IMG/VR virus record: IMGVR_UViG_3300011116_000487
Location: 1 to 20,744 of that record
Strand: one strand, 5' to 3'
Source of the DNA: a virus
DNA: 20,744 nucleotides
Shown here: one piece after another, positions 4,719-18,793 of the stretch
Position numbering within the stretch: position 1 is the stretch's first letter
How the letters are laid out: each line of letters begins with the position of its first letter
Notes under the pieces: model-generated
The model's database searches: none
The model's input: only the letters and a program-made list of their open reading frames with translations
Told to the model about the DNA's origin: nothing
Translations under genes and position numbers: made by a program

Positions 4719-4762
4719 AAATCCCCTTCACCATGACCGACCAATGGTGAAGGGGATTTTTT
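4719..4762. terminator. Strong intrinsic terminator between convergent units
   Basis: Perfect 16-base inverted repeat: AAATCCCCTTCACCAT (4719-4734), a 9-base loop, and its complement (4744-4759). On the plus strand it is followed by a run of six T (4757-4762), a textbook terminator for the rightward unit. On the minus strand it is followed by ATTTCTTT, a weaker tract, so it probably also stops late leftward transcription. The stop codon of the epimerase gene lies inside its right edge (4761-4763). Confidence 0.92.
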
Positions 4763-5624
4763 ATGAGGCAAGTGCGCGAGCAATGCCTTCTTCAAGAGAA
4801 ATCTTTGGTTCATAGTTTTGCAACATCCAAGTCGGATCGCCGACTCTGTATTCAACACCAACAGGTGCGTTCAAATTGGTCTTAATGGGTGCAAGATAAC
4901 CTGCTTGCAACATAACCATCTCTGCCAACTCAATGAAAGAGGTTGGTCTGCCTGAACAGATGTTCATGACACCCACATCATTTGTGACTGCTGCAAAGGT
5001 TGCCCCAACAACATCATCAATGTGGACAAAATCTCGCACCTGAGTTCCTGCGCCCCACACTTCAAATGGGTCTGCCTTGCGCTTTGCTCGTTCAATAAAG
5101 GATGGGAATGGGTAATCAAGTGCCTGATCTGAACCGTATCCGCTAAATGGTCGAAGAACGCTGACCTTCAAACCTTCAGCTCGTGCATAAGAGGCGAGCA
5201 TTTCACCTGACAACTTTGCCCAACCATAGGTGAAGTCAGGTGTTCTGATATGTTCAAGATTGATGTCAATTTCACGCAATTTTTGTTGGTAGGCAAGTTT
5301 CTGCAAGAAAATCGGATAAGCCGCAGATGATGAGAAATAGACAATGTGCTTCGGACGAGTTTTCAGCGCCCATTGAAACATATCTGCATCAATGGCAAGG
5401 TCAGAGGCAACTGACAATGGGTTTCCCTCAATGGTCATTCGCCCACCGACAATTGCCGCGAGATGAATCACCACATCAAACTGAGTGTTGTCAGTTGCAA
5501 AGAAGTGGCGAACCTCTTTGCCATTGACCAAATCAATGCCTGTAATCTCATGATTCTTGCCATCAAGTGCGCGGTGAAAAGCACGCCCGACAAATCCTGC
5601 ATCACCTGTGATGAGAATTTTCAC
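4761..5624 (-). CDS. NAD-dependent epimerase/dehydratase (extended SDR)
   Basis: Sugar-nucleotide epimerase, dehydratase or reductase of the extended short-chain dehydrogenase group. It has the N-terminal NAD-binding motif GDAGFVG (GxxGxxG) right after the first strand, the catalytic serine segment FSSSAAYP, and YGWAK as the YxxxK active site. LRPFSGYG and WGAGTQVRDFVHIDDV are typical substrate-side motifs of this family. I chose GTG at 5624, which overlaps the upstream stop as GTGA and has GGGGGATGGA just ahead; an ATG at 5636 is an alternative adding four residues. The exact sugar cannot be read; GDP-fucose synthase-like or UDP-glucose epimerase-like activities are both possible. It is the last gene of the late operon, behind two glycosyltransferases. 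Confidence 0.9.
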   Translation of the reverse strand: MKILITGDAGFVGRAFHRALDGKNHEITGIDLVNGKEVRHFFATDNTQFDVVIHLAAIVGGRMTIEGNPLSVASDLAIDADMFQWALKTRPKHIVYFSSSAAYPIFLQKLAYQQKLREIDINLEHIRTPDFTYGWAKLSGEMLASYARAEGLKVSVLRPFSGYGSDQALDYPFPSFIERAKRKADPFEVWGAGTQVRDFVHIDDVVGATFAAVTNDVGVMNICSGRPTSFIELAEMVMLQAGYLAPIKTNLNAPVGVEYRVGDPTWMLQNYEPKISLEEGIARALAS

Positions 5625-6346
5625 TCCATCCCCCATTCATATTGATATTTGTCATCACCTGTCAGGGCAATGGATTTTTGTTGATCAATAGCGAAGATAA
5701 ACTTATCATTCTCATCAAGGGCTGCGCCAATGTGACTGATGGGGTTTGCAGGTTCTAAAAGGTAATCCTTGCGAACCGACTTGCCTTCAACCTCGGTGTT
5801 GTAGAACTCGTCATGAACAAAGCAGGAAAATTGAATTCTTGGATAAATCATATTCCGCAAGAAATCTTGGTCTTGGGTGTAATAGTCGGAAATCTCAACC
5901 GACTCAATCAGGGTGCGGATGTCTTTGAATAAGGCACAGCGAACCGAGAACATACCTGCATTGATCGGATAATTGTGACCGATGGGGTGATCTTTCATGA
6001 TGTGAGCATCAAGACCTGACTCAAGGAACTGCTCGTGGGCGTTCAACTCGCGCAAAGACAGGCGAGCATCGGCATCACGGAAGGCAACAAAGTCATAATC
6101 TAATTCACAGGCAAGAAATCGCCATAACTTGGCGGTGTGATCTTCAGGTGCATCTGTCTGAATGATTCGAACATTGCTAAACAGGCGCAAGGTTGAAATC
6201 ACCCAGGGTGGAACGGATGCACCTACGAAAAAGACCAACTCATATTCATCATCCAAAATCTGTTGAGCGATGATGGCGTTTTTGATTGCGCCCACCGAAT
6301 ACCGCAAATCTGACCCATAAAGTGAGAATGCAATTGCCTGTTTCAT
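5621..6346 (-). CDS. Glycosyltransferase-like protein (GT-A type)
   Basis: A 241-residue protein with features of a nucleotide-sugar glycosyltransferase. Strand-rich N-terminal half, then FVAFRDADARLS with the metal-binding DxD (D91, D93), then INAGMFSVRCALF (about 128-140), which resembles acceptor-region motifs, and YYTQDQDFL (155-163). The start overlaps the preceding stop (ATGA) and the end overlaps the epimerase start, so the three sugar genes form one translational unit. The likely substrate is a nucleotide sugar made or altered with the help of the epimerase. The target (virion protein, host envelope or other) is unknown. Confidence 0.75.
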   Translation of the reverse strand: MKQAIAFSLYGSDLRYSVGAIKNAIIAQQILDDEYELVFFVGASVPPWVISTLRLFSNVRIIQTDAPEDHTAKLWRFLACELDYDFVAFRDADARLSLRELNAHEQFLESGLDAHIMKDHPIGHNYPINAGMFSVRCALFKDIRTLIESVEISDYYTQDQDFLRNMIYPRIQFSCFVHDEFYNTEVEGKSVRKDYLLEPANPISHIGAALDENDKFIFAIDQQKSIALTGDDKYQYEWGME

Positions 6347-7011
6347 CGGCGCAATTTCTTCAGCAAAACCTCGTAGCCTTCAGATTCAATATAATTCCTG
6401 TACGCAAGAGCATCGGCAGAATAAACTTCCTGTGCATTGACTGCGACATATCCTTCATCCCACTCAGCTTTTCCTGCAACCGGGTGCATATGCTCAACGA
6501 TGACATCTTCAAGATAAGTCAAAGAGCCTAAATCCTCGCCCAATTTCTTCCAAAAGTTGTCCAAGTAAAGGTGCTTCATATTCGGTGGCACCATTCCTTG
6601 AAGGGCGGTGACAATATCTGATGTCATTGCAACCATCGTTGGAAGGCGTTTGCCTTGAAGTAGATCGTTGCCGTAGGCAAGTGACGGTGCCTTTTGCAAT
6701 GCCGCAATCAAGAGTGCATCCCAATCGGCGGTGCGTGGGCGGTGGTCATCGCCTAAGAAGGCGAAATACTTGTATTTGTCGGCATATTTGTGTGCCACAT
6801 AATTGAGTGGCTTTGCCATACCGCGTGAGTCATTATTGCAGGTGATTACATAGTCATCGCCTAATTCAAAGACATATTCATCACCCTTTGGATCGTCATA
6901 ATCTACGATGAAGAGCAAGCGTGATGCAGATGAGAGTTCATCGTGAGCCGCAAGGAGTTCAATGGCATTTTGTGGTCTGCCACGGGTTGGAACAAGTGTG
7001 ATCATTTCCAT
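6343..7011 (-). CDS. Glycosyltransferase-like protein (GT-A / family 2-like)
   Basis: A 222-residue protein. It opens with the family-2-like MITLVPTRGRPQN and has NDSRGMAKPLN (60-70), the segment YFAFLGDDHRPRT holding the metal-binding acidic pair (D88, D89, H90), and EDVIVEHMHP (169-177) as the C-terminal acidic and histidine element. It lacks membrane segments, so it is presumably cytoplasmic. I kept the ATG at 7011, which has GGGGAG 11 bases upstream; an ATG at 7005 that overlaps the upstream stop as ATGA is equally possible. It is first of the three-gene sugar cassette at the end of the late operon. Confidence 0.8.
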   Translation of the reverse strand: MEMITLVPTRGRPQNAIELLAAHDELSSASRLLFIVDYDDPKGDEYVFELGDDYVITCNNDSRGMAKPLNYVAHKYADKYKYFAFLGDDHRPRTADWDALLIAALQKAPSLAYGNDLLQGKRLPTMVAMTSDIVTALQGMVPPNMKHLYLDNFWKKLGEDLGSLTYLEDVIVEHMHPVAGKAEWDEGYVAVNAQEVYSADALAYRNYIESEGYEVLLKKLRR

Positions 7012-8706: not shown

Positions 8707-9216
8707 TTATGAGTTCTTGATGCCGTATAGATAGAAAGATGAACCTGCCACGAATAAAGGTGCTGTATCTGTGTCAATCTTCAATTCAGTAATTGCTGCG
8801 GTGTTAGACCAAAGTAAAGCATTAATTCTCATTGTGACAGTTGTTGCGTTTGTCTCGGCTACACCAAAAACAGACATTGGCTTATTCTGGCTCACTGTAT
8901 AATTGGGTATGTAAATCTCAACCGAACCAAAAGTGTTCGCAGTAGCATTTGCCGCTGTAAATCTTCCAGCATCGAAATCTGTAGTTGCTCGTGCAGAAGT
9001 GGCAGTAGATCCGTCACCGCTTAAAGATGTATTTGAATCACCTGTAGTTAATGAATTAGGTCGAACTCCGAGGCTTCTATCTACAGAAGCTGCATCGCAA
9101 CGCGCGCTAAGCCTTACTACTAAATCTGTGTAAGTCTGCGGGATGGCTGTAAATGTGACAGAAGATGCGCCTGTAGTTAGGACATTGCTTGCTATAAGTG
9201 TGTATGTATTTGCCAT
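8707..9216 (-). CDS. Fibre-like protein, third tandem copy
   Basis: A 169-residue member of a three-gene tandem family. It shares the opening TYTLIASNVLTTGASSVTF..IPQTYTDLV with the next two genes upstream, a Thr/Ser/Asn-rich beta centre, and the C-terminal LYGIK motif (FYLYGIKNS). Such proteins are probably trimeric beta structures displayed at the tail tip. Receptor binding is plausible but not shown. It starts one base after the stop of the preceding copy (TAAGATG). There are no catalytic motifs. Confidence 0.75.
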   Translation of the reverse strand: MANTYTLIASNVLTTGASSVTFTAIPQTYTDLVVRLSARCDAASVDRSLGVRPNSLTTGDSNTSLSGDGSTATSARATTDFDAGRFTAANATANTFGSVEIYIPNYTVSQNKPMSVFGVAETNATTVTMRINALLWSNTAAITELKIDTDTAPLFVAGSSFYLYGIKNS

Positions 9217-9217
9217 C

Positions 9218-9709
9218 TTATGCCTTTAGTATTCCGTAGAGTGTGGCTGTTGTGCCTGTGGCGAAGTTTGACCCATCAGTCAAAGTAATGGTGCTTATGG
9301 CAGAAGTTGAACGCCATAGAGCCACAATCCTGTCTACTGTTCCCGAACCATTTTGGTCATTTGCAGCTGTGGTTAAAATTGTTTTGTAAGTAGAACCAGC
9401 ATAAGAAAATAAATCTATAGTGTAAAGACTCCATAAATTAGCACCAGCATTGTTAGCTCCTATGTTAATCGAAGTAGCATTAGTGCTTCTGGCAGTATTA
9501 GCCGCTGTGCCATTTCCGTTTATAATTGTTCTTGAATAATTAGTCGCAGTATCGGAATTGAAACGAACAGTTATTAAGCCCCCAACGCCATCATTAGAGA
9601 CTAATACTAACCTTAAATCTGTATAAGCAGAACTAATTGATGAAAATGTAATTGTGCTTGCTGCACTTCCCAGAGTAGTGGTAGCGATTGGCTCGTATGT
9701 TGCTGGCAT
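9218..9709 (-). CDS. Fibre-like protein, second tandem copy
   Basis: A 163-residue relative of its two neighbours. Shared parts are TYEPIATTTLGSAASTITFSSI, then SSAYTDLRLVL, and the ending TATLYGILKA. The centre (residues about 45-125) is rich in Asn, Thr and Ala and differs from the other copies. The start follows the upstream stop directly (TAAATG) with GGGAG ahead. It is likely a virion fibre or tip protein, judged from composition, order and relation to the other copies. Confidence 0.75.
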   Translation of the reverse strand: MPATYEPIATTTLGSAASTITFSSISSAYTDLRLVLVSNDGVGGLITVRFNSDTATNYSRTIINGNGTAANTARSTNATSINIGANNAGANLWSLYTIDLFSYAGSTYKTILTTAANDQNGSGTVDRIVALWRSTSAISTITLTDGSNFATGTTATLYGILKA

Positions 9710-10306
9710 TTACGCTCCCTTAATTCCGTATAGTGCAAACTGAGTAGATGTTGTGAAATTAGCACCTGCATTGGTTGAAAATGTTAATGATGTTATAGCA
9801 GCCGTGTTCATCCATAATCCAGATGACAACCTCACAGATCCTTGAGTTGTATCATTGTTATTAACACCGCTGAAAGATCTAAAAGTTTTATTACGGGTTG
9901 TGCTTGCATAGTCGTGAATGTCCAAAATAGTCACACCCATGTTGTTGGCTGTATAATTGGCGTTGGATAAAACACCTACACGCATTTGTGTGGAGGTATT
10001 ATCCCAAGATGCCGATGCAGTTGTACCATCACCATCTAGCCAATGATAAGGAAGTGTGCTTGTGGTGTCAGCATTAAGCCGTAAAAATAACTGAATAGGT
10101 CCGGGATCTGTATTAGTTTGGTGCCGACCAATTATTCTTAATTGCAAAGATGCATAAGTGCTAGGGATCGATGAAAAGGTAATTGTTCCCGATGATCCTG
10201 TGCCATTTACAGATGCGATGGACTCGTAAGCCGTACCCGCTGCCGCCGCAAAACTACGGTACCCATATGCAGAGGCGTTTGCCAATGTTGAACTGATCGG
10301 TGACAT
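9710..10306 (-). CDS. Fibre-like protein, first tandem copy
   Basis: A 198-residue protein from the ATG at 10306, with AAGGGG 6 bases upstream; a TTG one codon earlier is less likely. It has an N-terminal extension of about 25 residues (SSTLANASAYGYRSFAAAAG) that the other two copies lack, then the shared block AYESIASVNGTGSSGTITFSSI and STYASLQLRII, a variable centre, and the C-terminal FALYGIKGA. The extension might attach it to the tail or to the fibre-like protein encoded just upstream. Role inferred: tail tip or receptor binding. Confidence 0.75.
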   Translation of the reverse strand: MSPISSTLANASAYGYRSFAAAAGTAYESIASVNGTGSSGTITFSSIPSTYASLQLRIIGRHQTNTDPGPIQLFLRLNADTTSTLPYHWLDGDGTTASASWDNTSTQMRVGVLSNANYTANNMGVTILDIHDYASTTRNKTFRSFSGVNNNDTTQGSVRLSSGLWMNTAAITSLTFSTNAGANFTTSTQFALYGIKGA

Positions 10307-10315
10307 CAAAACCCC

Positions 10316-11033: not shown

Positions 11034-12296
11034 TCAGTAGGAAAGCACAGAGTTTGCGCCATCCAATATTCCTTGTGTTGCTGAATCTAAAATGAATGCC
11101 TGAATTATAGGCTCTGCGGTGAACAATTTTGTTGTCCATGTGTTGGTGGTGATGTCGTGCTGAATACCCTGAACGAAGAGTTCAAGAGTCACACTTCCCG
11201 ACCCAGGGGTTGATTTGGTGATATTAGTCAGGTCAAAAATGTCTAAACTCAAACCTGCCTGAATGCGTGCGGTTTCGGTGTCATCTGCCAAATTCAAACC
11301 AATGGAGTCAATGCGAAAGATGGCATCTTTGCGTGATTGCAAGATCATGGTTGCCTGATCCAAAGACTCAGTATCAGTTTGAATCAACAAACCTTCACGC
11401 TTGCCTGAGTGGATGAAGTAGGTTTCAATGCTGCTTGTATCCTGCACAGTCTGAGCTGTACCACCCACGCGGTTGACGGTGACATCATTGAAGATCAGGG
11501 TGTCATCGTAGGCAAAGTCAATTGCCTGATATGAGATTCCTGTGCCATTATCTGCAAAATCTGTGGCAGTTCCATCTGCCTTTTGAGCCAATGTGTTCCG
11601 TGAAAGGAATACGGCGTTGCCTTCAGGGTCAATGTAGAAACCACCGAATTCGCTGTTCTCAATTGTCTGCAAGGCGTTGAGTAGGTCACGCTCGGTGCCT
11701 GGGTCTGCCTGAACGGTGCTGTCTCCTGTGTCAATATTTCGCATTGAACTTGGGAAAGTTGGAACATCAAGTAGGTTATTTATTCGCGCACCTGTTGTCT
11801 GCCCTGCCGAAGTTCCTGCCACAGTTGAGATTGCAACATTGGAGAAAAGGCGGAATGCATCTACACATTGCAAGGTCACAGTTGAGATGTCATCAAGACC
11901 GACTTTGAAGTTGGTGTCATAGCTCGTGATATACCCTGAATAAAGGTAATACCGAACGGTTCCTGATCCTGAATCGTAATCTGCCCAAATGCGGATTTTG
12001 CGAAGAGGTACAAGTTTGCCGTAATAAGGAGATGAGGTGTTTGTTGGCACCCAATCGCCGTTGGTATCCTCAAGGATAACTGTGGCACTTCCTGCTTCAA
12101 ACTTGTTCAGGATACGGTTTCGACCTCTGCGAATTGAAGCGCGAAGGGTAATGTTTGAAACATCAACAACATCAGATGGTGAATCTGCCAAGATGCCCAC
12201 GCCAAGCGGCGTTGATGCATCGTCAAGAATAAGCGGATTGCCGAAGGCAGGGCCGTTGGCAAAGTCAACTGAAACTCCAAGCGTAGGCATAGCCAT
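11034..12296 (-). CDS. Minor tail protein (tail tip / baseplate hub type)
   Basis: A 420-residue protein encoded right after the tape measure. Its N-terminal half resembles minor tail proteins of actinophages: RASIRRGRNRILNKFEAGSA (53-72), then TVILEDTNGDWVP and NTSSPYYGKLVPLRKIRI, followed by a YYLYSGYI strand. The central part has EFGGFYIDPEGNAVF, typical of tail-hub proteins. The C-terminal region continues in beta structure. The start overlaps the tape measure stop (TAATG). It is expected at the distal tail end, linking tube and fibres. Which baseplate component it equals (distal tail or tail-associated hub) cannot be decided from sequence alone. Confidence 0.85.
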   Translation of the reverse strand: MAMPTLGVSVDFANGPAFGNPLILDDASTPLGVGILADSPSDVVDVSNITLRASIRRGRNRILNKFEAGSATVILEDTNGDWVPTNTSSPYYGKLVPLRKIRIWADYDSGSGTVRYYLYSGYITSYDTNFKVGLDDISTVTLQCVDAFRLFSNVAISTVAGTSAGQTTGARINNLLDVPTFPSSMRNIDTGDSTVQADPGTERDLLNALQTIENSEFGGFYIDPEGNAVFLSRNTLAQKADGTATDFADNGTGISYQAIDFAYDDTLIFNDVTVNRVGGTAQTVQDTSSIETYFIHSGKREGLLIQTDTESLDQATMILQSRKDAIFRIDSIGLNLADDTETARIQAGLSLDIFDLTNITKSTPGSGSVTLELFVQGIQHDITTNTWTTKLFTAEPIIQAFILDSATQGILDGANSVLSY

Positions 12297-14854
12297 TAGA
12301 TGGCAACCGCCGACTTCGTAATCACTTGGCCGTTATTTTGAGCCTGAAGGAGTGCATTGCGAATGCCTGAAACTAAGTCTGCCTCTGCAATCACCGATCC
12401 TGCATTGTTGATTGTGATGGTGATATTGCCACCGATTCCGCTGCCTGAAAGTGGGATAACCGCTTCAGGCCCGGCTTCACCGATCAATGCCATCGTTGGT
12501 GAGGTAACAATTCCACCGCTTGCAAGAGCGATCAGATCACCACGCTTTGAATTGATGCCAGGTGGTAATTCTTCAACAGGTTTTGTTGAACCCCCATTGA
12601 TTTCATCAAGAATCTTCTTCTTCTCAGCATCACTCAAACCTGCAAGTGCTTCTGCTGCTGCTTTGGCTGCCTCTGCTGCTTCAATCATTGCTGCTGCTTC
12701 ATCGGCTGCTGCTGCCGCTGCTGCTGATGCTGCCGCCGCTGCTGCATTTGATGCTGCAATTGCCGCGTTAGATGCTGATGTTGCTGCCTCTGCCCCTGCA
12801 ACCGCCCTTGATGTTGCTTCTAAAGCGGCAACGGCGGCGGCTTGGGCTGCTGCCGATTGTGTGATCGCTGTGTTGAGTCCTGCAATGTAAGCAAAGAGAG
12901 CTGCGTTGGCTTTGTTCCAACCTGCCGTTGCTGCATCTGCTGGTTCAATGAGAGTTCCTGAATATGAAACAGGCAATCCGATTTGCTTTGTGTAAGCAAG
13001 AACTTCGGCAGTTGTTAAACCCCAACGATCTTGAAGTTTTTTGATTTCTTCATCAGAAAGTGTGAAGTCATCTAATTTTTCAACAAAGTCTGCATATTGC
13101 AAGACTTCTTTATATGTTAAATTCCATTTGTCTTGAAGTTTTTTGATCTCTTCATCGCTGAGTTTGCCATCATTGAGTGCTGCGTAAAAATCAAGGTACT
13201 TTTGTGCTGCCTCTTTGGAGATGCCCCATGCTGCTGCCAAGAGTGCAACTTCAGAGTCATCAATCTTCTGATCTTTGATGATGAAGATTGTTGCAAGGTA
13301 ATTAGTAACTGCCGCAATTGACATTCCCCACTTGGCTGCCAATACGCCAATTTCTTCAGGGCTGATCTTGTTGTCTGCAAGTGCAACGAGAATGTCTGCA
13401 TACTTTTGTGCATTCTCATTGACCTTCATCTGCGCCTCGGCAGACTTGAGCATCAATTCAATTTGCTTGAGTTGCTCAAGATTGCCTTGCTTAACAAGGT
13501 TCAGGCGTGCTGCTTCAAGCTGAATTGGATCGGTGTCTGAAACATTCTTTACACCAAAGACATCCAACCCTGCCTTCTTGATGGCGGCACGAACTTCTGC
13601 TGCCTTCTTTTCAGCGGCGGTAAGTTCTTTGGTTACTTTTGTATTGTCATTGATGATCTTGTTGTTCTTGATGTTGGCTGCTGCAACCTGCTCTGCAACT
13701 CTGCCAAGTTCTTTCAAATGTGAATTGTATGTCTTTGTTGATGTTGAACCTTTGTCGGTTGCTGCCGTCAACTTGTTGATGCCGATATATGCCGCACCTG
13801 CTGCTGCTACGAACACGCCAATGGCTGCTGCCGCTGCAATCGCCGAAGCACCGCCTGTGGCAAATGCTGTGGCTGTGCCGGCGGCGGTTGCGGCTGCTGC
13901 TTGCTTGACAAAGGCTGCTCGTAAAAGACCAACGGCAGTCACAATGGCATAAATACCCGAAGCCAACTTTGCGCCAACAAAGATTGCTGCAAATGCTTTG
14001 ACAACACCTAAGTTGTCGGCAATGACTTTGAAGAATCCTGCCAAAGTTTTTGCAACTGTGATGAGGGTTGTACCCACATCTTTCAAACCTGCTGCAAGTT
14101 CATCCTTGTTTGTGTTGACCCACTTTTCAAGAGCAGGAAGCACATTTGCAACAATGTATTCTGCAAATTCTTGGATGACGGGAAGAAGGGCATATCCCAA
14201 AGTCTCAAGGATTTCGCCGTAGGCAATTTGGAGTTGTCGCAAGCGACCTTCAAGACTATCTGCTGCCGTAATTGCAGCTCCACCATATGCCTTTGTTAAG
14301 GCATCTACTGCGCCTTTGAAATCTTTATTTTTGACAATTGTTTTGTCAATGCTCACACCAAGTTTTGTGAGTGCGCCAATGTTCCCGTTGTATGCCTTTG
14401 CAATTGCTAAGGAAACAGTTTGCAAATCTTTTGTTGTGCCGGCTGCTGTATCAAGAGCAACATTTTGAAGAGCCTGTGCCTGTGTTAAATCACCTGTTGC
14501 TGTGGTGAGCGTGATGAGGCTCTGACGAAGTTCTGTGTCAGATACGGCAACCAACATTTGTTGCGCTGATATGTAATCTTCAACAGCTTTGATTGCATCA
14601 TCGGTTGCACCTGTTGTGTTCCGTAATGCATTGGCAAGAAGTGCTTGTGATTTTTGATCTTCAATTGCGCCTTTTACGGCATCAACACCAACTTTGGCTG
14701 CAAATGCGCCAACGGCTATTGTTGCAACGCCAAAGGCTTTGCCAATTCTTTTTCCTGCATCAATAAAGTTCTTTTCAAGTTTCTTGAGGTCTTTGACCGC
14801 TTGCTTGGAACCTTTGTCATTATAGACGGTGACTATGCGCTCAACAATTGACAC
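12296..14854 (-). CDS. Tail tape measure protein
   Basis: An 852-residue protein that sets tail length and is ejected with the DNA. It starts at GTG (14854) with AGAGAGGTG ahead. Domain order: N-terminal tape-measure region (residues 1-260, with the TKLGVSIDKTIV type segment), a hydrophobic stretch (about 284-358) that could insert in the host membrane, a charged helical part (375-484), four exact-length 34-residue repeats (485-620, each with Trp at W509, W543, W577 or W611), an alanine-rich helix (about 665-738), and the C-terminal signature GGIVTSPTMALIGEAGPEAV (780-799). At about 1.5 angstroms per residue the tail would be near 130 nm; that is a rule-of-thumb estimate. Chaperone genes precede it, as usual. 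Confidence 0.96.
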   Translation of the reverse strand: MSIVERIVTVYNDKGSKQAVKDLKKLEKNFIDAGKRIGKAFGVATIAVGAFAAKVGVDAVKGAIEDQKSQALLANALRNTTGATDDAIKAVEDYISAQQMLVAVSDTELRQSLITLTTATGDLTQAQALQNVALDTAAGTTKDLQTVSLAIAKAYNGNIGALTKLGVSIDKTIVKNKDFKGAVDALTKAYGGAAITAADSLEGRLRQLQIAYGEILETLGYALLPVIQEFAEYIVANVLPALEKWVNTNKDELAAGLKDVGTTLITVAKTLAGFFKVIADNLGVVKAFAAIFVGAKLASGIYAIVTAVGLLRAAFVKQAAAATAAGTATAFATGGASAIAAAAAIGVFVAAAGAAYIGINKLTAATDKGSTSTKTYNSHLKELGRVAEQVAAANIKNNKIINDNTKVTKELTAAEKKAAEVRAAIKKAGLDVFGVKNVSDTDPIQLEAARLNLVKQGNLEQLKQIELMLKSAEAQMKVNENAQKYADILVALADNKISPEEIGVLAAKWGMSIAAVTNYLATIFIIKDQKIDDSEVALLAAAWGISKEAAQKYLDFYAALNDGKLSDEEIKKLQDKWNLTYKEVLQYADFVEKLDDFTLSDEEIKKLQDRWGLTTAEVLAYTKQIGLPVSYSGTLIEPADAATAGWNKANAALFAYIAGLNTAITQSAAAQAAAVAALEATSRAVAGAEAATSASNAAIAASNAAAAAASAAAAAAADEAAAMIEAAEAAKAAAEALAGLSDAEKKKILDEINGGSTKPVEELPPGINSKRGDLIALASGGIVTSPTMALIGEAGPEAVIPLSGSGIGGNITITINNAGSVIAEADLVSGIRNALLQAQNNGQVITKSAVAI
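12641..12862 (-). repeat. Alanine-rich, GCT/GCN-repetitive segment of the tape measure gene
   Basis: The part encoding residues about 665-738 is a low-complexity run of alanine codons, including a stretch of eight alanines, seen on the plus strand as repeated CTGCTG and GCTGCTGC. It probably makes a long uninterrupted helix. The segment is prone to slippage during replication, so its length could vary between relatives. Confidence 0.8.
12995..13402 (-). repeat. Four in-frame 34-residue (102-base) repeats in the tape measure gene
   Basis: Residues 485-620 form four consecutive units of exactly 34 residues beginning at Y485, Y519, Y553 and Y587, with Y621 starting a remnant. Each unit has a (D/N)-x-K or similar turn, a SDEEI-like acidic helix start and a Trp at a fixed place (spacing 34). 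Units three and four are most alike (LSDEEIKKLQD(K/R)W). The nucleotide copies have diverged. Confidence 0.9.
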
Positions 14855-15511: not shown

Positions 15512-15917
15512 TACTTGCTTCGCGCCTTCGCTCGTTCTTTCATGTATATGACTATTGCTTCAAGGATTCCTTCAGGTGCATCAAGTAATGCAACCGGAGA
15601 CAATCCTGTTTCCACCGAGATTGCTGCGATTGAATATGTCAGGCTGTCTCGGTGGATTCGGAATTTGGGTTTGCCACCAACGAAACTTCTTTGAGAGTAT
15701 CAAGGAAGTCTCCGCCGAAAGGCTTAATGATATTTCCGTTGTGCTTCAAGGCTAACCAAGCCAAATAATAGATATGCTCTAATTTTTGCTCTTCGCCAAT
15801 CAGCTTTGCAAGTCCTTTGTTGTATTTTTGTTCAAAGTCAACAATGATGCGTGGTCGAAGCGAATACACTCTTTCCACATCATCATTGGTGACGATTTTG
15901 ATACTTAGTCCATCCAT
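15511..15917 (-). CDS. Tail assembly chaperone G-T fusion made by -1 frameshift
   Basis: Extended form of the chaperone. Ribosomes slipping back one base at AAACCCA (15666-15672) leave the short frame near codon 82 and read on through PKFRIHRDSLTYSIAAISVE, then ALLDAPEGILEAIVIYMKER, ending in KARSK with TAA at 15511-15513. The fused product is 135 residues. The T frame has no own start, but its composition and its SLTYSIAAISVETGLSPVALL pattern are those of real T extensions, and its stop overlaps the next start (TAATG). In lambda and most long-tailed phages such G and GT proteins bind the tape measure during tail assembly. Confidence 0.88.
15639..15917 (-). CDS. Tail assembly chaperone, short (G-like) form
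   Basis: A 92-residue protein starting at the ATG at 15917 with GGGGGAAAT ahead. It is acidic and mostly helical (VDFEQKYNKGLAKLIGEEQ, EHIYYLAWLALKHNG), with a FGGDFLDTLKEV segment near the end. FxxDFLDxLxEV-type endings are common in tail assembly chaperones of actinophages, just before the slip site. It precedes the tape measure with one gene between. It is the main product; a minority of ribosomes should make the longer form. Confidence 0.88.
   Translation of the reverse strand: MDGLSIKIVTNDDVERVYSLRPRIIVDFEQKYNKGLAKLIGEEQKLEHIYYLAWLALKHNGNIIKPFGGDFLDTLKEVSLVANPNSESTETA
15666..15672 (-). other. Programmed -1 ribosomal frameshift slippery site AAACCCA
   Basis: Read on the minus strand the heptamer is A AAC CCA in the chaperone frame, a correct X XXY YYZ slippery sequence (AAA, CCC, A). 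It is followed 27 bases later by the zero-frame stop TGA, while the -1 frame stays open to 15511. Its position near the end of the tail chaperone gene is exactly where siphophages place this signal. No obvious downstream stem-loop was identified by eye. Confidence 0.85.
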
Positions 15918-15936: not shown

Positions 15937-16344
15937 TTAGGATGTTGCTTTTGTGATTGCGCCTGAGATCGGCCAGGACACACTTGCAGTTGCCAACTCG
16001 CCCACAGCACCATTTACCGGAGTCCACTCTGAAATCACGGCAGAAAAACTGTATTGAGGATTGATCGTACTCGTTGAAGTATTCACAGGCTTGACTGCAA
16101 TTGTGACGGCTGTTCCAAGTGTTGGATAGATCGTCTGCTCAATGCTTGAAGTCGCGTAATCCTGATGAAATTCAAGAGTCACAGAATTGTCTGCTAATCC
16201 AGCCACCCTCGTCTTCGAAGAATTTCCGAAAGCCGTGGTCTCAACAATGTCATAACTTGTTGAAAGTGAGATTGATGCCACATGGTCAGAGATGTCAGTT
16301 GATCCAAAAAGGACATATGCGTTTGTTAATACGATTCTTGCCAT
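15937..16344 (-). CDS. Major tail protein (tail tube), second copy
   Basis: A 135-residue tube subunit candidate, highly similar to the gene just upstream (about two thirds of positions identical in a hand alignment). Shared blocks are MARIVLTNAY, IVETTAF, KTRVAGLADNS, TLEFHQDYAT, EQTIYP, AVISEWTP, NGAVGELA and ASVSWP. It differs mainly at residues about 11-35 and 82-105. The protein is beta-rich, as expected for tail-tube folds. It starts by TAATG overlap with the first copy, so both are made from one message. It could be a second tube protein, or a specialised subunit at one end of the tube. Confidence 0.85.
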   Translation of the reverse strand: MARIVLTNAYVLFGSTDISDHVASISLSTSYDIVETTAFGNSSKTRVAGLADNSVTLEFHQDYATSSIEQTIYPTLGTAVTIAVKPVNTSTSTINPQYSFSAVISEWTPVNGAVGELATASVSWPISGAITKATS

Positions 16345-16754
16345 TATGCAACCGCCTTAGTGATGGCACCTGTTACAGGCCATGACACCGATGCGCTGGC
16401 TAACTCGCCCACGGCTCCATTCAAAGGAGTCCATTCTGAGATAACCGCGTTGCAGGTATATGAAGGATTGAACGCACTTGTTGTTGAACCATTTGGCTTC
16501 ACAATTACTGCTGCAACTGTTCCGAGAAGTGGATAAATTGTTTGCTCAACTTCGCCTGTTGCATAATCCTGATGAAATTCAAGAGTGATTGAATTGTCTG
16601 CCAATCCAGCCACCCTAGTTTTTGTTGCTGATGATGAAAATGCTGTTGTTTCTACGACATCAAATGTTGATGAAAGTGAGACTGAGCTGACCAAATCGCT
16701 CAAATCTACTCCACCAACCGAGATGTACGCATTGGTTAATACGATGCGTGCCAT
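16344..16754 (-). CDS. Major tail protein (tail tube), first copy
   Basis: A 136-residue beta-rich protein in the tail-tube position: after the tail terminator and before the chaperone. Conserved blocks are those listed for its twin, ending ISEWTPLNGAVGELASAS, then VSWPVTGAI. Its ATG overlaps the stop of the small protein upstream (TAATG). The short N-terminal strand section with VDLSDLVSSVSL is usual for tail-tube subunits, which stack as hexamers around the tape measure. That there are two adjacent copies is discussed as a finding. Confidence 0.88.
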   Translation of the reverse strand: MARIVLTNAYISVGGVDLSDLVSSVSLSSTFDVVETTAFSSSATKTRVAGLADNSITLEFHQDYATGEVEQTIYPLLGTVAAVIVKPNGSTTSAFNPSYTCNAVISEWTPLNGAVGELASASVSWPVTGAITKAVA

Positions 16755-16936
16755 TAGTTGGTCGCTCCTTCTGTTGCTGGTTTGATGGATGGTGTTGCTG
16801 CATTGCTTGCCTTGATGTGGTTTGCAGCAATGAGTGCCTGTGCGCTCACTCCTGCATCAACAAGTTCTTTGTCGGTGATTGACTCACCCTTCTTCTTGCC
16901 ACAGACCTCTCGATCTGAGATGACGGTGTATGCCAT
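16754..16936 (-). CDS. Small hypothetical protein between tail terminator and tail tube
   Basis: A 60-residue protein with an excellent ribosome-binding site (AAGGAGAACC before ATG). The sequence has a short strand (AYTVISDREVCGKKKGES) and a small helical motif DKELVDAGVSAQALIAANHI, which resembles a compact domain common in small phage proteins at this place, followed by a Ser/Thr/Pro-rich tail. Function unknown; it is possibly a minor structural or assembly protein because it sits between the tail terminator and tube genes. Confidence 0.75.
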   Translation of the reverse strand: MAYTVISDREVCGKKKGESITDKELVDAGVSAQALIAANHIKASNAATPSIKPATEGATN

Positions 16937-16945
16937 TGGTTCTCC

Positions 16946-17344
16946 TTATCCCCAAATCGTGATTCTGTAACGATAGGAAAGAAATGTGACTCCTTGTGAG
17001 TCATAAGTACCTGCTTCGGCACCTGTAACTCGCAAAGTGTTGACGGTTCCCCCAAGAGTGCGATCACCTTCAATTGCTGCTTTGATAGAACTTGCGCCTG
17101 AACCTGCAAGGTAGGCATCTAGTTTGTCCTGTCCAGCACGCTCTGAAAAGCGTTGCACAATCACAAGTGCATCAACCTGCGCTTGGTCAAGACCACGAGC
17201 ATTGTCAATGTCAAATGTGAAATCTAATTGTCCGACTACTGCACACGGCGGAACTACCGTGTCAGGAATCAAATCATACGCTCGCAAGCCTGTAATTGTT
17301 TGCAGTCTTGTTTTCAAACCGTCTCGAACTTGACTTGGATTCAT
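16946..17344 (-). CDS. Tail terminator-like protein
   Basis: A 132-residue protein. Early helix (PSQVRDGLKTRLQTITGL), a DTVVPPCAVV strand, a repeated beta pattern with QVDALVIVQRFSERAGQDKLD, and the end TFLSYRYRITIWG. This is the usual form of phage tail terminator proteins that cap the tube and join tail to head. The position, between connector and tube genes, agrees. The start overlaps the connector stop (TAATG) without its own strong ribosome-binding site, so translation is probably coupled. Confidence 0.78.
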   Translation of the reverse strand: MNPSQVRDGLKTRLQTITGLRAYDLIPDTVVPPCAVVGQLDFTFDIDNARGLDQAQVDALVIVQRFSERAGQDKLDAYLAGSGASSIKAAIEGDRTLGGTVNTLRVTGAEAGTYDSQGVTFLSYRYRITIWG

Positions 17345-17952
17345 TACTTAGCCAACCCATTGTTCTTGCGGAAAGGTCGAAGCAATGCTTCAACATCAGG
17401 ATCAAGTCGTGAAGTTAAGCGAACAGTTCCAAGTTCAGGTGTTCCTGCAATTCCAAAAGGTGATTGACGGCGAACAAAGATGCGTGAGGATTGAATCAAG
17501 CAAGCAGATTGCACCTCGTAAGGCACCGCGCTCCAACCCCAAATGCCTGTGATCTTGCAAGCCTGTGGCAAGTAATAAGGCCATACATAACGACCTATTG
17601 CAAGGATTCTTGTGAACGGCCACCCTCTGCGTGGATTGTTGATGGGTTCAACCATGTAATCACTTGTTGACCATACGGTGTCCCAAGTTTGATTGAAGTT
17701 GTCATCGGTTGCAATCTGTGTGATTGTCACAATGTCATCAACATTCATTGTCCACGGATCAAGGGCGGTGTAATAACGAGCAACAGGTGTTTGCGCTGTT
17801 CCGTCAGGATAGAAGAATCGCCCTGTATAGTCATCAATCATGCGACTTGTTGCATTGATGGCTGCTTCAAGAGCTGCATCATCTGTTGCATCGCTGATTG
17901 TCAATGCTGCCTTCAACTCGGCAAGTGTGGAATAACCGTTAGTGATCGCCAC
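17344..17952 (-). CDS. Head-tail connector (gp6-like adaptor)
   Basis: A 202-residue protein. It opens with YSTLAELKAALTISDATDDAALEAAINATSRMIDDYTGRFF in outline (residues 7-47), the helical start typical of HK97 gp6-like adaptors that form a ring under the portal. The middle is beta-rich (DIVTITQI, TSDYMVEPIN), and the C-terminal part has helices (QSACLIQSSRIFVRRQSPFG). It starts at GTG (17952) with AGAGGA 8 bases upstream, inside the end of the 39-residue gene. Confidence 0.82.
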   Translation of the reverse strand: MAITNGYSTLAELKAALTISDATDDAALEAAINATSRMIDDYTGRFFYPDGTAQTPVARYYTALDPWTMNVDDIVTITQIATDDNFNQTWDTVWSTSDYMVEPINNPRRGWPFTRILAIGRYVWPYYLPQACKITGIWGWSAVPYEVQSACLIQSSRIFVRRQSPFGIAGTPELGTVRLTSRLDPDVEALLRPFRKNNGLAK

Positions 17953-18058
17953 GCTTTATCCTCTTTTCTGCTTTTGGCAGGATTGCTCGTTCTAATTGTG
18001 GCTCCGCCGTTGCCGTTTCTTTCGGCTTCCTGCGAAGAAGTTTTTTTAATCTGTCCAT
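17939..18058 (-). CDS. 39-residue basic peptide between glycosyltransferase and connector genes
   Basis: A short frame from ATG at 18058 to TAA at 17939. Its start lies inside the end of the glycosyltransferase gene and its end inside the start of the connector gene (13- and 14-base overlaps), filling the otherwise empty gap. The product is strongly basic (MDRLKKLLRRKPKET..., ending AEKRIKRGDH). There is no clear ribosome-binding site, so it would depend on coupling. No family recognised. It may be a real small virion protein or simply keep ribosomes moving into the connector gene. Confidence 0.55.
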   Translation of the reverse strand: MDRLKKLLRRKPKETATAEPQLERAILPKAEKRIKRGDH

Positions 18059-18729
18059 GCTTCGTGATGACTTTCATCTAACCAAAATGACTTTTGGTGA
18101 GGGAGTATGACTGAAGTGTTCACATGGATTGGATAACCAAGTGATTTGATTCTGCGTGAGAAAAGTAAGTCCTCGCCAATCCATTCGCCATTGACAGGCC
18201 CATCCCAAAACCAACACCAATCTTTGCCTTGATTTGGGTCTGCAACTTCGCGCATCTTTTCCAACACGCTTCGATGAATCATCAGGCAACCTGTACCTGC
18301 TGCATCTATTTCAAAAACTGAGTTCTTGTCATATTTATACAAGGGCAAGAATCCTTGTGGTGAATCCTGAAAGATTGCAGGAACGGGTTTTGGATAAGTT
18401 TTGCCAGGAACTCCGAAACCTGCAAAGACTAGACCTGCAACAACAGGGCGATCTTTGTCATGGGCGGTGTTACATAAAGCATCAAATGCTTCAACTGAAA
18501 GTTGCTCATCGCTGTCAAGCATCAACAACCAATCGGAATCGGTCATTTCTAAGAATTGTTTCACAACACGATTGCGTTGCTTTGATAGTAAGCCTGAACC
18601 TTTGACTCGAACGAATGGGCCGAGTTTTGAACTTCTAGCTCCTGAAAGTTGAATGAGTCTGTACGCAAAAGCGCCATTGACCATTCCTGGGTCGCAAGAC
18701 CCGATTGAAACTGTGTGACCTGTTTTCAT
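18046..18729 (-). CDS. Glycosyltransferase (family 2-like) inside the capsid module
   Basis: A 227-residue GT-A-fold transferase. The start is the ATG at 18729 with a GGGGGA site. Features are VSIGSCDPGMVNGAF near the start, QRNRVVKQFLEMTDSDW (51-67), LLMLDSDEQLS with the metal-binding DxD (D72, D74), the acceptor-side GTGCLMIHRSVLEKM (145-159), GEWIGEDLLFSRRIKSLGYP (181-200) with the acidic pair E186-D187, and H211 in LPHQKSF. It would move a sugar from a nucleotide sugar to an acceptor. It lies between capsid and connector genes, where such enzymes are unusual, and is preceded by a perfect hairpin. Confidence 0.9.
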   Translation of the reverse strand: MKTGHTVSIGSCDPGMVNGAFAYRLIQLSGARSSKLGPFVRVKGSGLLSKQRNRVVKQFLEMTDSDWLLMLDSDEQLSVEAFDALCNTAHDKDRPVVAGLVFAGFGVPGKTYPKPVPAIFQDSPQGFLPLYKYDKNSVFEIDAAGTGCLMIHRSVLEKMREVADPNQGKDWCWFWDGPVNGEWIGEDLLFSRRIKSLGYPIHVNTSVILPHQKSFWLDESHHEAWTD

Positions 18730-18751
18730 TTGATTCCCCCGAATCTTAGGA

Positions 18752-18793
18752 GTGAAGAGTGGGTAAGTCGGGGGAGTCCTACCCACTCTTCAC
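18752..18793 (-). promoter_or_regulatory. Perfect 14-bp hairpin between capsid and glycosyltransferase genes
   Basis: Inverted repeat GTGAAGAGTGGGTA (18752-18765) and its exact complement (18780-18793) with a 14-base loop. It lies 20 bases after the capsid stop and 22 bases before the glycosyltransferase ATG. No T-tract follows on the minus strand (TCCTAAG), so it is more likely an mRNA-stabilising or attenuating stem at the capsid 3' end than a full terminator. Confidence 0.7.

Follow-up and report, generated by a model that had tools for sequence, protein, structure and literature searches.

A conserved pair of adjacent paralogous tail tube genes, candidate partners in a mixed siphophage tail tube

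Siphophage tail tubes are described in textbooks as rings of one repeated protein, and the single-tube siphophages lambda, SPP1, R4C and phiPsal1 each have one tube gene. Two kinds of tube subunit are nevertheless found in one shaft, in a fixed ratio, in SPP1 (gp17.1 and gp17.1*) and also in TP901-1 and the lactococcal 936 phages. The second kind arises in SPP1 from a translational frameshift on one gene, which adds a C-terminal domain, and the ratio is 3:1 (PMC8718954). A duplicated tube domain is present in T5 pb6 and in Thermus phage P74-26, in which pseudo-hexamer rings are made of two non-identical domains (PMC5717097, PMC10034513). In T4, too, a single particle has tube-fold proteins of more than one kind, among them the tube-initiator paralogues gp48 and gp54 of its contractile tail. 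A siphophage with two separate paralogous tube genes, paired major tail proteins or a heterohexameric tube was not found in the literature searched, which is weak evidence of absence.

The stretch of DNA analysed here (the window), a virus record of 20,744 bases, carries two tube genes, designated A and B, and both are conserved in its phage group, in contrast to the single gene of the siphophages named above. Unlike the SPP1 subunits, A and B are encoded by two separate full genes, have near-equal lengths and show their differences within the body of the fold. A frameshift extension of one gene, as in SPP1, was not observed, each being a complete gene with its own start, stop and Shine-Dalgarno sequence. 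The domains of P74-26 are fused in one polypeptide and have 16% identity, whereas A and B are separate and 69% identical; a fused two-domain tube ORF of the T5/P74-26 type was present in none of 550 fetched loci. T4 gp48 and gp54 occupy end rings, whereas A and B are adjacent, coupled and far more similar to each other. The locus is an arrangement of known components for which no description was found in the literature.

The minus strand carries the tail module, which runs from the capsid gene through glycosyltransferase, head-tail adaptor, tail terminator, the 60-aa gene, A, B and the probable chaperone to a 217-aa gene, followed by the tape measure and more tail genes (Table 1). This position of A and B is typical of tube genes, with the terminator (phrog_17840) upstream and the tape measure (phrog_12798) downstream, and the order terminator, tube, chaperone, tape measure is identical in phiPsal1. 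Family matches of the probable chaperone were too weak to count. The 60-aa gene, which had no PHROG or Pfam match, was detected between terminator and A in 75 of the 76 two-copy loci whose upstream DNA was long enough. The half of the genome with the structural genes also contains a nucleotide-sugar epimerase gene and glycosyltransferase-like genes (4761-7011 and 18046-18786, minus strand), and phiPsal1 likewise has glycosyltransferase genes between its capsid and neck genes. Downstream of the tail genes are three adjacent paralogous genes (8707-9216, 9218-9709 and 9710-10309, minus strand) with 31-34% identity and at most one weak PHROG match, to a family of unknown function; they are possibly fibre or receptor-binding modules. 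The window also contains a WhiB gene (PF02467, 5.5e-15); WhiB is considered to mark actinophages (PMC10202952, PMC6802176). This gene points to an actinobacterium as the host of the window phage, and the hosts of the two-tube-gene phage group are probably actinobacteria.

Table 1. Features of the tail module in the window, listed in the direction of transcription.
Feature	Position	Strand	Size	Basis or remark
Head-tail adaptor	17344..17952	minus		phrog_442, E 3.7e-19; PF05135, 9.4e-05
Tail terminator	16946..17344	minus		phrog_17840, E 2.8e-25
Conserved gene just upstream of A	16754..16936	minus	60 aa	No family assignment; TAATG-joined to A
Shine-Dalgarno sequence of A, AAGGAG	16765..16770	minus		Duplex energy -8.0 kcal/mol
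Tube gene A	16344..16754	minus	136 aa	Tail tube (major tail) protein; more conserved, ancestral-like copy
Shine-Dalgarno sequence of B, AAGGCGG	16352..16358	minus		Within the last codons of A (K133 AAG, A134 GCG, V135); anti-SD duplex -8.2 kcal/mol
TAATG junction	16342..16346	minus		A stop overlaps B start by one base; predicted termination-reinitiation coupling
Tube gene B	15937..16344	minus	135 aa	Paralogous tail tube protein; derived copy (F13, T16, V88 type)
Probable tail assembly chaperone	15639..15917	minus		Position and size only; phiPsal1 and REQ1 likewise have it between the tube and tape measure genes
Tape measure protein	12296..14854	minus		phrog_12798, E 1.2e-06; length and position

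The original prediction, made from the sequence of the window, placed two adjacent, coupled tube genes at 15937-16754. Indeed, both ORFs occupy this interval on the minus strand and are joined by TAATG. The two products had been estimated to share about two thirds of their residues, in good agreement with the BLASTP alignment (69% identity and 85% positives over 134 aa, E 6e-70). Both matched phrog_4574, 'major tail protein', over nearly their full length (E 4.9e-25 for A and 8.7e-26 for B). Differences had been located at residues of about 11-35 and 82-110 and were measured close to these positions: across lineages, amino acid identity between A and B of the same locus was 47% at residues 9-31 and 44% at 79-104, compared to 72-88% elsewhere. 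These two segments were also more variable among orthologues (69% and 63-69%, respectively), and part of the concentration of A-B differences is therefore ordinary variability.

Sequence searches found no solved structures related to A or B, and their relatives emerged by fold only. AlphaFold2 models of the single chains (pLDDT 84.8 for A and 88.0 for B) had an identical order of strands and helix and contained the tube fold, a beta sandwich with one helix and a long hairpin, with 119-123 residues aligned to solved tubes at Z 9-11. The A model was matched to the R4C tail tube 8gtb (Z 10.5) and to lambda gpV 7t2e (Z 9.1), and the B model to 8gtb (Z 10.8, 21% identity). The monocin tube, the GTA tube and SPP1 gp17.1 were further solved tube proteins that aligned to both models. 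The fold of lambda gpV, SPP1 gp17.1, the R4C tail tube protein and the phiPsal1 tube is common to A and B over nearly the whole protein, as had been anticipated for both products. The models support the identification of A and B as two genuine tube-fold proteins.

To the extent covered by the IMG/VR loci, the pair is a fixed property of the group. The original prediction had looked to related genomes for the same pair, and A and B were adjacent and in the same order in 80 of the 80 loci nearest to A. All scans pooled, 241 two-copy loci were read, the same contig having been fetched twice in some cases; they collapsed to 83 non-redundant lineages plus L328, a locus of a sister group. In the 83 lineages of the window's group the order was always A then B, with no loss of either gene, and no internal stops, fusions or third copies occurred among the 241 two-copy loci. 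When loci were collected by DNA pattern instead of similarity, eight single copies were returned, seven of them cut by a contig end; the eighth (L394), away from the contig end, belongs to a diverged lineage outside the B clade. Relatives of A and B were absent from cellular genomes (genome_contigs). An assembly or sequencing artefact is refuted by the many contigs, of different samples and independent assemblies, that carry the same pair with diverged sequences, and its probability is negligible. Relatives with a decaying second copy, which had been named as the case that would speak against the prediction, were not seen in the window's group; the sister group does have clean single-copy members.

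Outside the group, a single tube copy was found in about 165 loci related to Pontimonas phage phiPsal1 and a single matching place in 8 of 8 related cultured-phage records (REQ1 entered twice), which fits the earlier statement that most siphophages have one tube protein. Since phiPsal1 has a single tube gene in an otherwise identical gene order, one gene was taken as the ancestral state. The sister group to which L328 belongs (L427-L506) comprised 42 two-copy and 38 single-copy loci. Among the latter, 33 of 38 were away from contig ends and without remnants of a second copy, and their existence indicates that phages of the sister group can function with one tube protein.

The sister-group pairs were mostly spaced by 13-26 bases and not joined by TAATG (for example, L328:5025-5843), and placement of the L328 copies as orthologues of A or B was rejected (AU tests, p 0.0003-0.004). 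The columns that separate the copies of the sister pair correlated with those that separate A from B, with a partial rho of 0.34 beyond general variability that was reached by 0 of 120 circular shifts. At residues 88-89, one partner of each pair has NG and the other has V at 88; N88-G89 is found in clade-1 A and clade-2 B, and V88 in clade-1 B and often in clade-2 A. These shared residues suggested one ancient duplication common to the two groups, with swapped order; AU tests rejected it in the core (p 0.0005) and neither favoured nor rejected it in the divergent segments (p 0.07-0.08). Independent duplication is preferred as a result, and the best reading is that the sister-group pair would have arisen by an independent duplication with similar specialisation.

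Within the window's group, the B sequences formed one clade (support 100/97 and 100/99 in two trees) with which A sequences never mixed (monophyly of A was neither supported nor rejected, p 0.17), placing the duplication before the group's diversification. Synonymous differences between A and B were large (pS about 0.6). A simple recent duplication, already considered unlikely in the original prediction, was ruled out by this value and by the age of the A/B split. Signature residues were in the ancestral state in A (V13, V16) and changed in B (F13, T16), and fixed A/B differences included residues 13, 16, 81, 88 and 89. Both genes were under purifying selection, B evolving slightly faster (dN/dS 0.134 for A and 0.159 for B). 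These data support the retention of both copies of an old duplication. They also bear on escape from a tube-sensing host defence, in which a second variant would dilute or evade recognition by systems such as DSR2. DSR2 does recognise a phage tail tube protein (PMC10981675), but selection on both copies was purifying and not diversifying, and we regard such an escape as very improbable.

Fourfold-site identity at residues 105-133 was 0.56 between A and B of the same genome, compared to 0.43 between A and B of different genomes and 0.49 among A orthologues. In segments 9-31 and 79-104 the within-genome excess was only 0.05-0.06, approximately that of shared codon usage. Homogenisation was clear in few single loci and the effect was mild. 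The reading of this pattern is that the core would have been partly homogenised by gene conversion and the two segments kept different. The homogenised core, and the sister-group phages that manage with one copy, are what could be cited for a dosage or neutral redundancy model, under which A and B are interchangeable, randomly mixed or dispensable, and kept for protein amount. Interchangeable copies would often be lost, however, and 0 of 83 lineages had lost one; moreover, fixed A/B differences persist despite gene conversion in the core, and dN/dS is low in both copies. Redundancy is on balance distinctly unlikely. Special coevolution of A with B was not detected, the correlation of A-B distances (r 0.80) being similar to those with the terminator, adaptor and chaperone (0.68-0.84).

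Conservation of the translation signals was examined across the same loci. The exact one-base overlap at the start of B was present in 230 of the 241 two-copy loci, mostly as TAATG and in a few as TAGTG. Mean Shine-Dalgarno duplex energies across loci were about equal (-8.1 kcal/mol for A and -7.5 kcal/mol for B). In the A codons that contain the Shine-Dalgarno sequence of B, K133 was encoded by AAG in 82 of 84 genes and A134 by GCG in 76 of 84, compared to approximately 7% of Ala codons elsewhere in A; GCG occurred at the homologous end of B in 0 of 84. The Shine-Dalgarno sequence of B is thus held in synonymous codons of A, which indicates selection for B translation and provides direct evidence, at the level of codon choice, that B is selected to be translated. 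In one locus (L331:7156-7974, minus strand) A and B are in the same frame with only TAG TTT between them, and readthrough or a single stop-codon change would join them into a naturally fused tube protein.

Codon adaptation to the capsid gene was higher in A than in B in 75 of 83 loci, which speaks against a strict 1:1 ratio and suggests that A is made in larger amount than B; B may be the minor partner. The expectation that A and B are made in similar amounts was thus borne out for ribosome binding strength and not for codon adaptation. The same asymmetry is relevant to a model of segregated rings, in which A forms most of the shaft and B forms homomeric rings at one end or zone (tip or terminator), like the initiators of contractile tails. 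A is more conserved and better codon-adapted, as a bulk subunit would be, and paralogous tube-fold proteins do act at tube ends elsewhere, as in T4, where gp48 and gp54 provide the hub for tube polymerisation (PMC8718954). An end ring needs only about six copies, however, whereas B has a strong, conserved ribosome binding site and is tightly coupled to the gene for the bulk subunit. B is also of the same length as A, without an added domain, and its 69% identity to A far exceeds the similarity of known end proteins. Segregated rings are therefore considered unlikely.

We consider it fairly probable that A and B are paralogous tube proteins, translated in a coupled manner from a single message, and that the tail shaft contains both. 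From these sequence data we infer that both proteins would be present in the virion, where they most likely co-assemble into a mixed tube. In the proposed model, an ancestral single-tube phage similar to phiPsal1 would have duplicated its tube gene in tandem; the ancestral sequence would have survived in A, and B would have diverged in two segments rich in surface residues, at about 9-31 and 79-104, with the ring-forming core remaining alike, partly by gene conversion. Both copies would then have become necessary in the lineage, most simply as mixed-tube partners. Loss by each copy of some of its ability to work alone would be the simplest account of the strict retention, the coupled translation and the preserved differences. 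A parallel is offered by the V-ATPase ring, whose duplicated subunits have come to depend on each other as obligate partners. The second tandem pair in the sister group is a further point in favour of the mixed tube.

The arrangement of the subunits is predicted less firmly. Ring contacts of tube proteins consist of lateral strand pairing and salt bridges, formed in R4C by D67, E70 and E103 with R91 and K126 (PMC10276861). E70, E107 and K133 do not vary in either A or B and may match, by rough position only, D67, E103 and K126 of the R4C lateral network. With these candidate ring-contact residues invariant in both, A and B should each fit into a ring. The leading form of the mixed-tube model would combine A and B within one six-subunit ring, with an alternating A3B3 ring as the extreme case; such a tube would be the unfused equivalent of those of T5 and P74-26, whose double domains are fused. 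Such mixed rings are a guess, which we hold as a possibility at less than even confidence, and the sequence data appear compatible with either mixed rings or separate homomeric rings. It is more doubtful still that two subunits encoded by separate genes form the tube as an obligate hetero-oligomer, whether A3B3 or some other fixed arrangement, and that such a tube arose at least twice in these phages.

Taken together, the phages of this group probably build their tails from two kinds of subunit, compared to one in nearly all known phages of this type. With two different tube genes retained over a long period, this large clade of uncultured phages allows the change from a homomeric to a heteromeric ring to be tested directly, and is a possible living intermediate toward fused tubes such as T5 pb6, a stage that could so far only be inferred. 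Because the sister group has both one-gene and two-gene members, this step is open to comparison and reconstitution. A second tube gene may also affect tail flexibility and the rules of length control.
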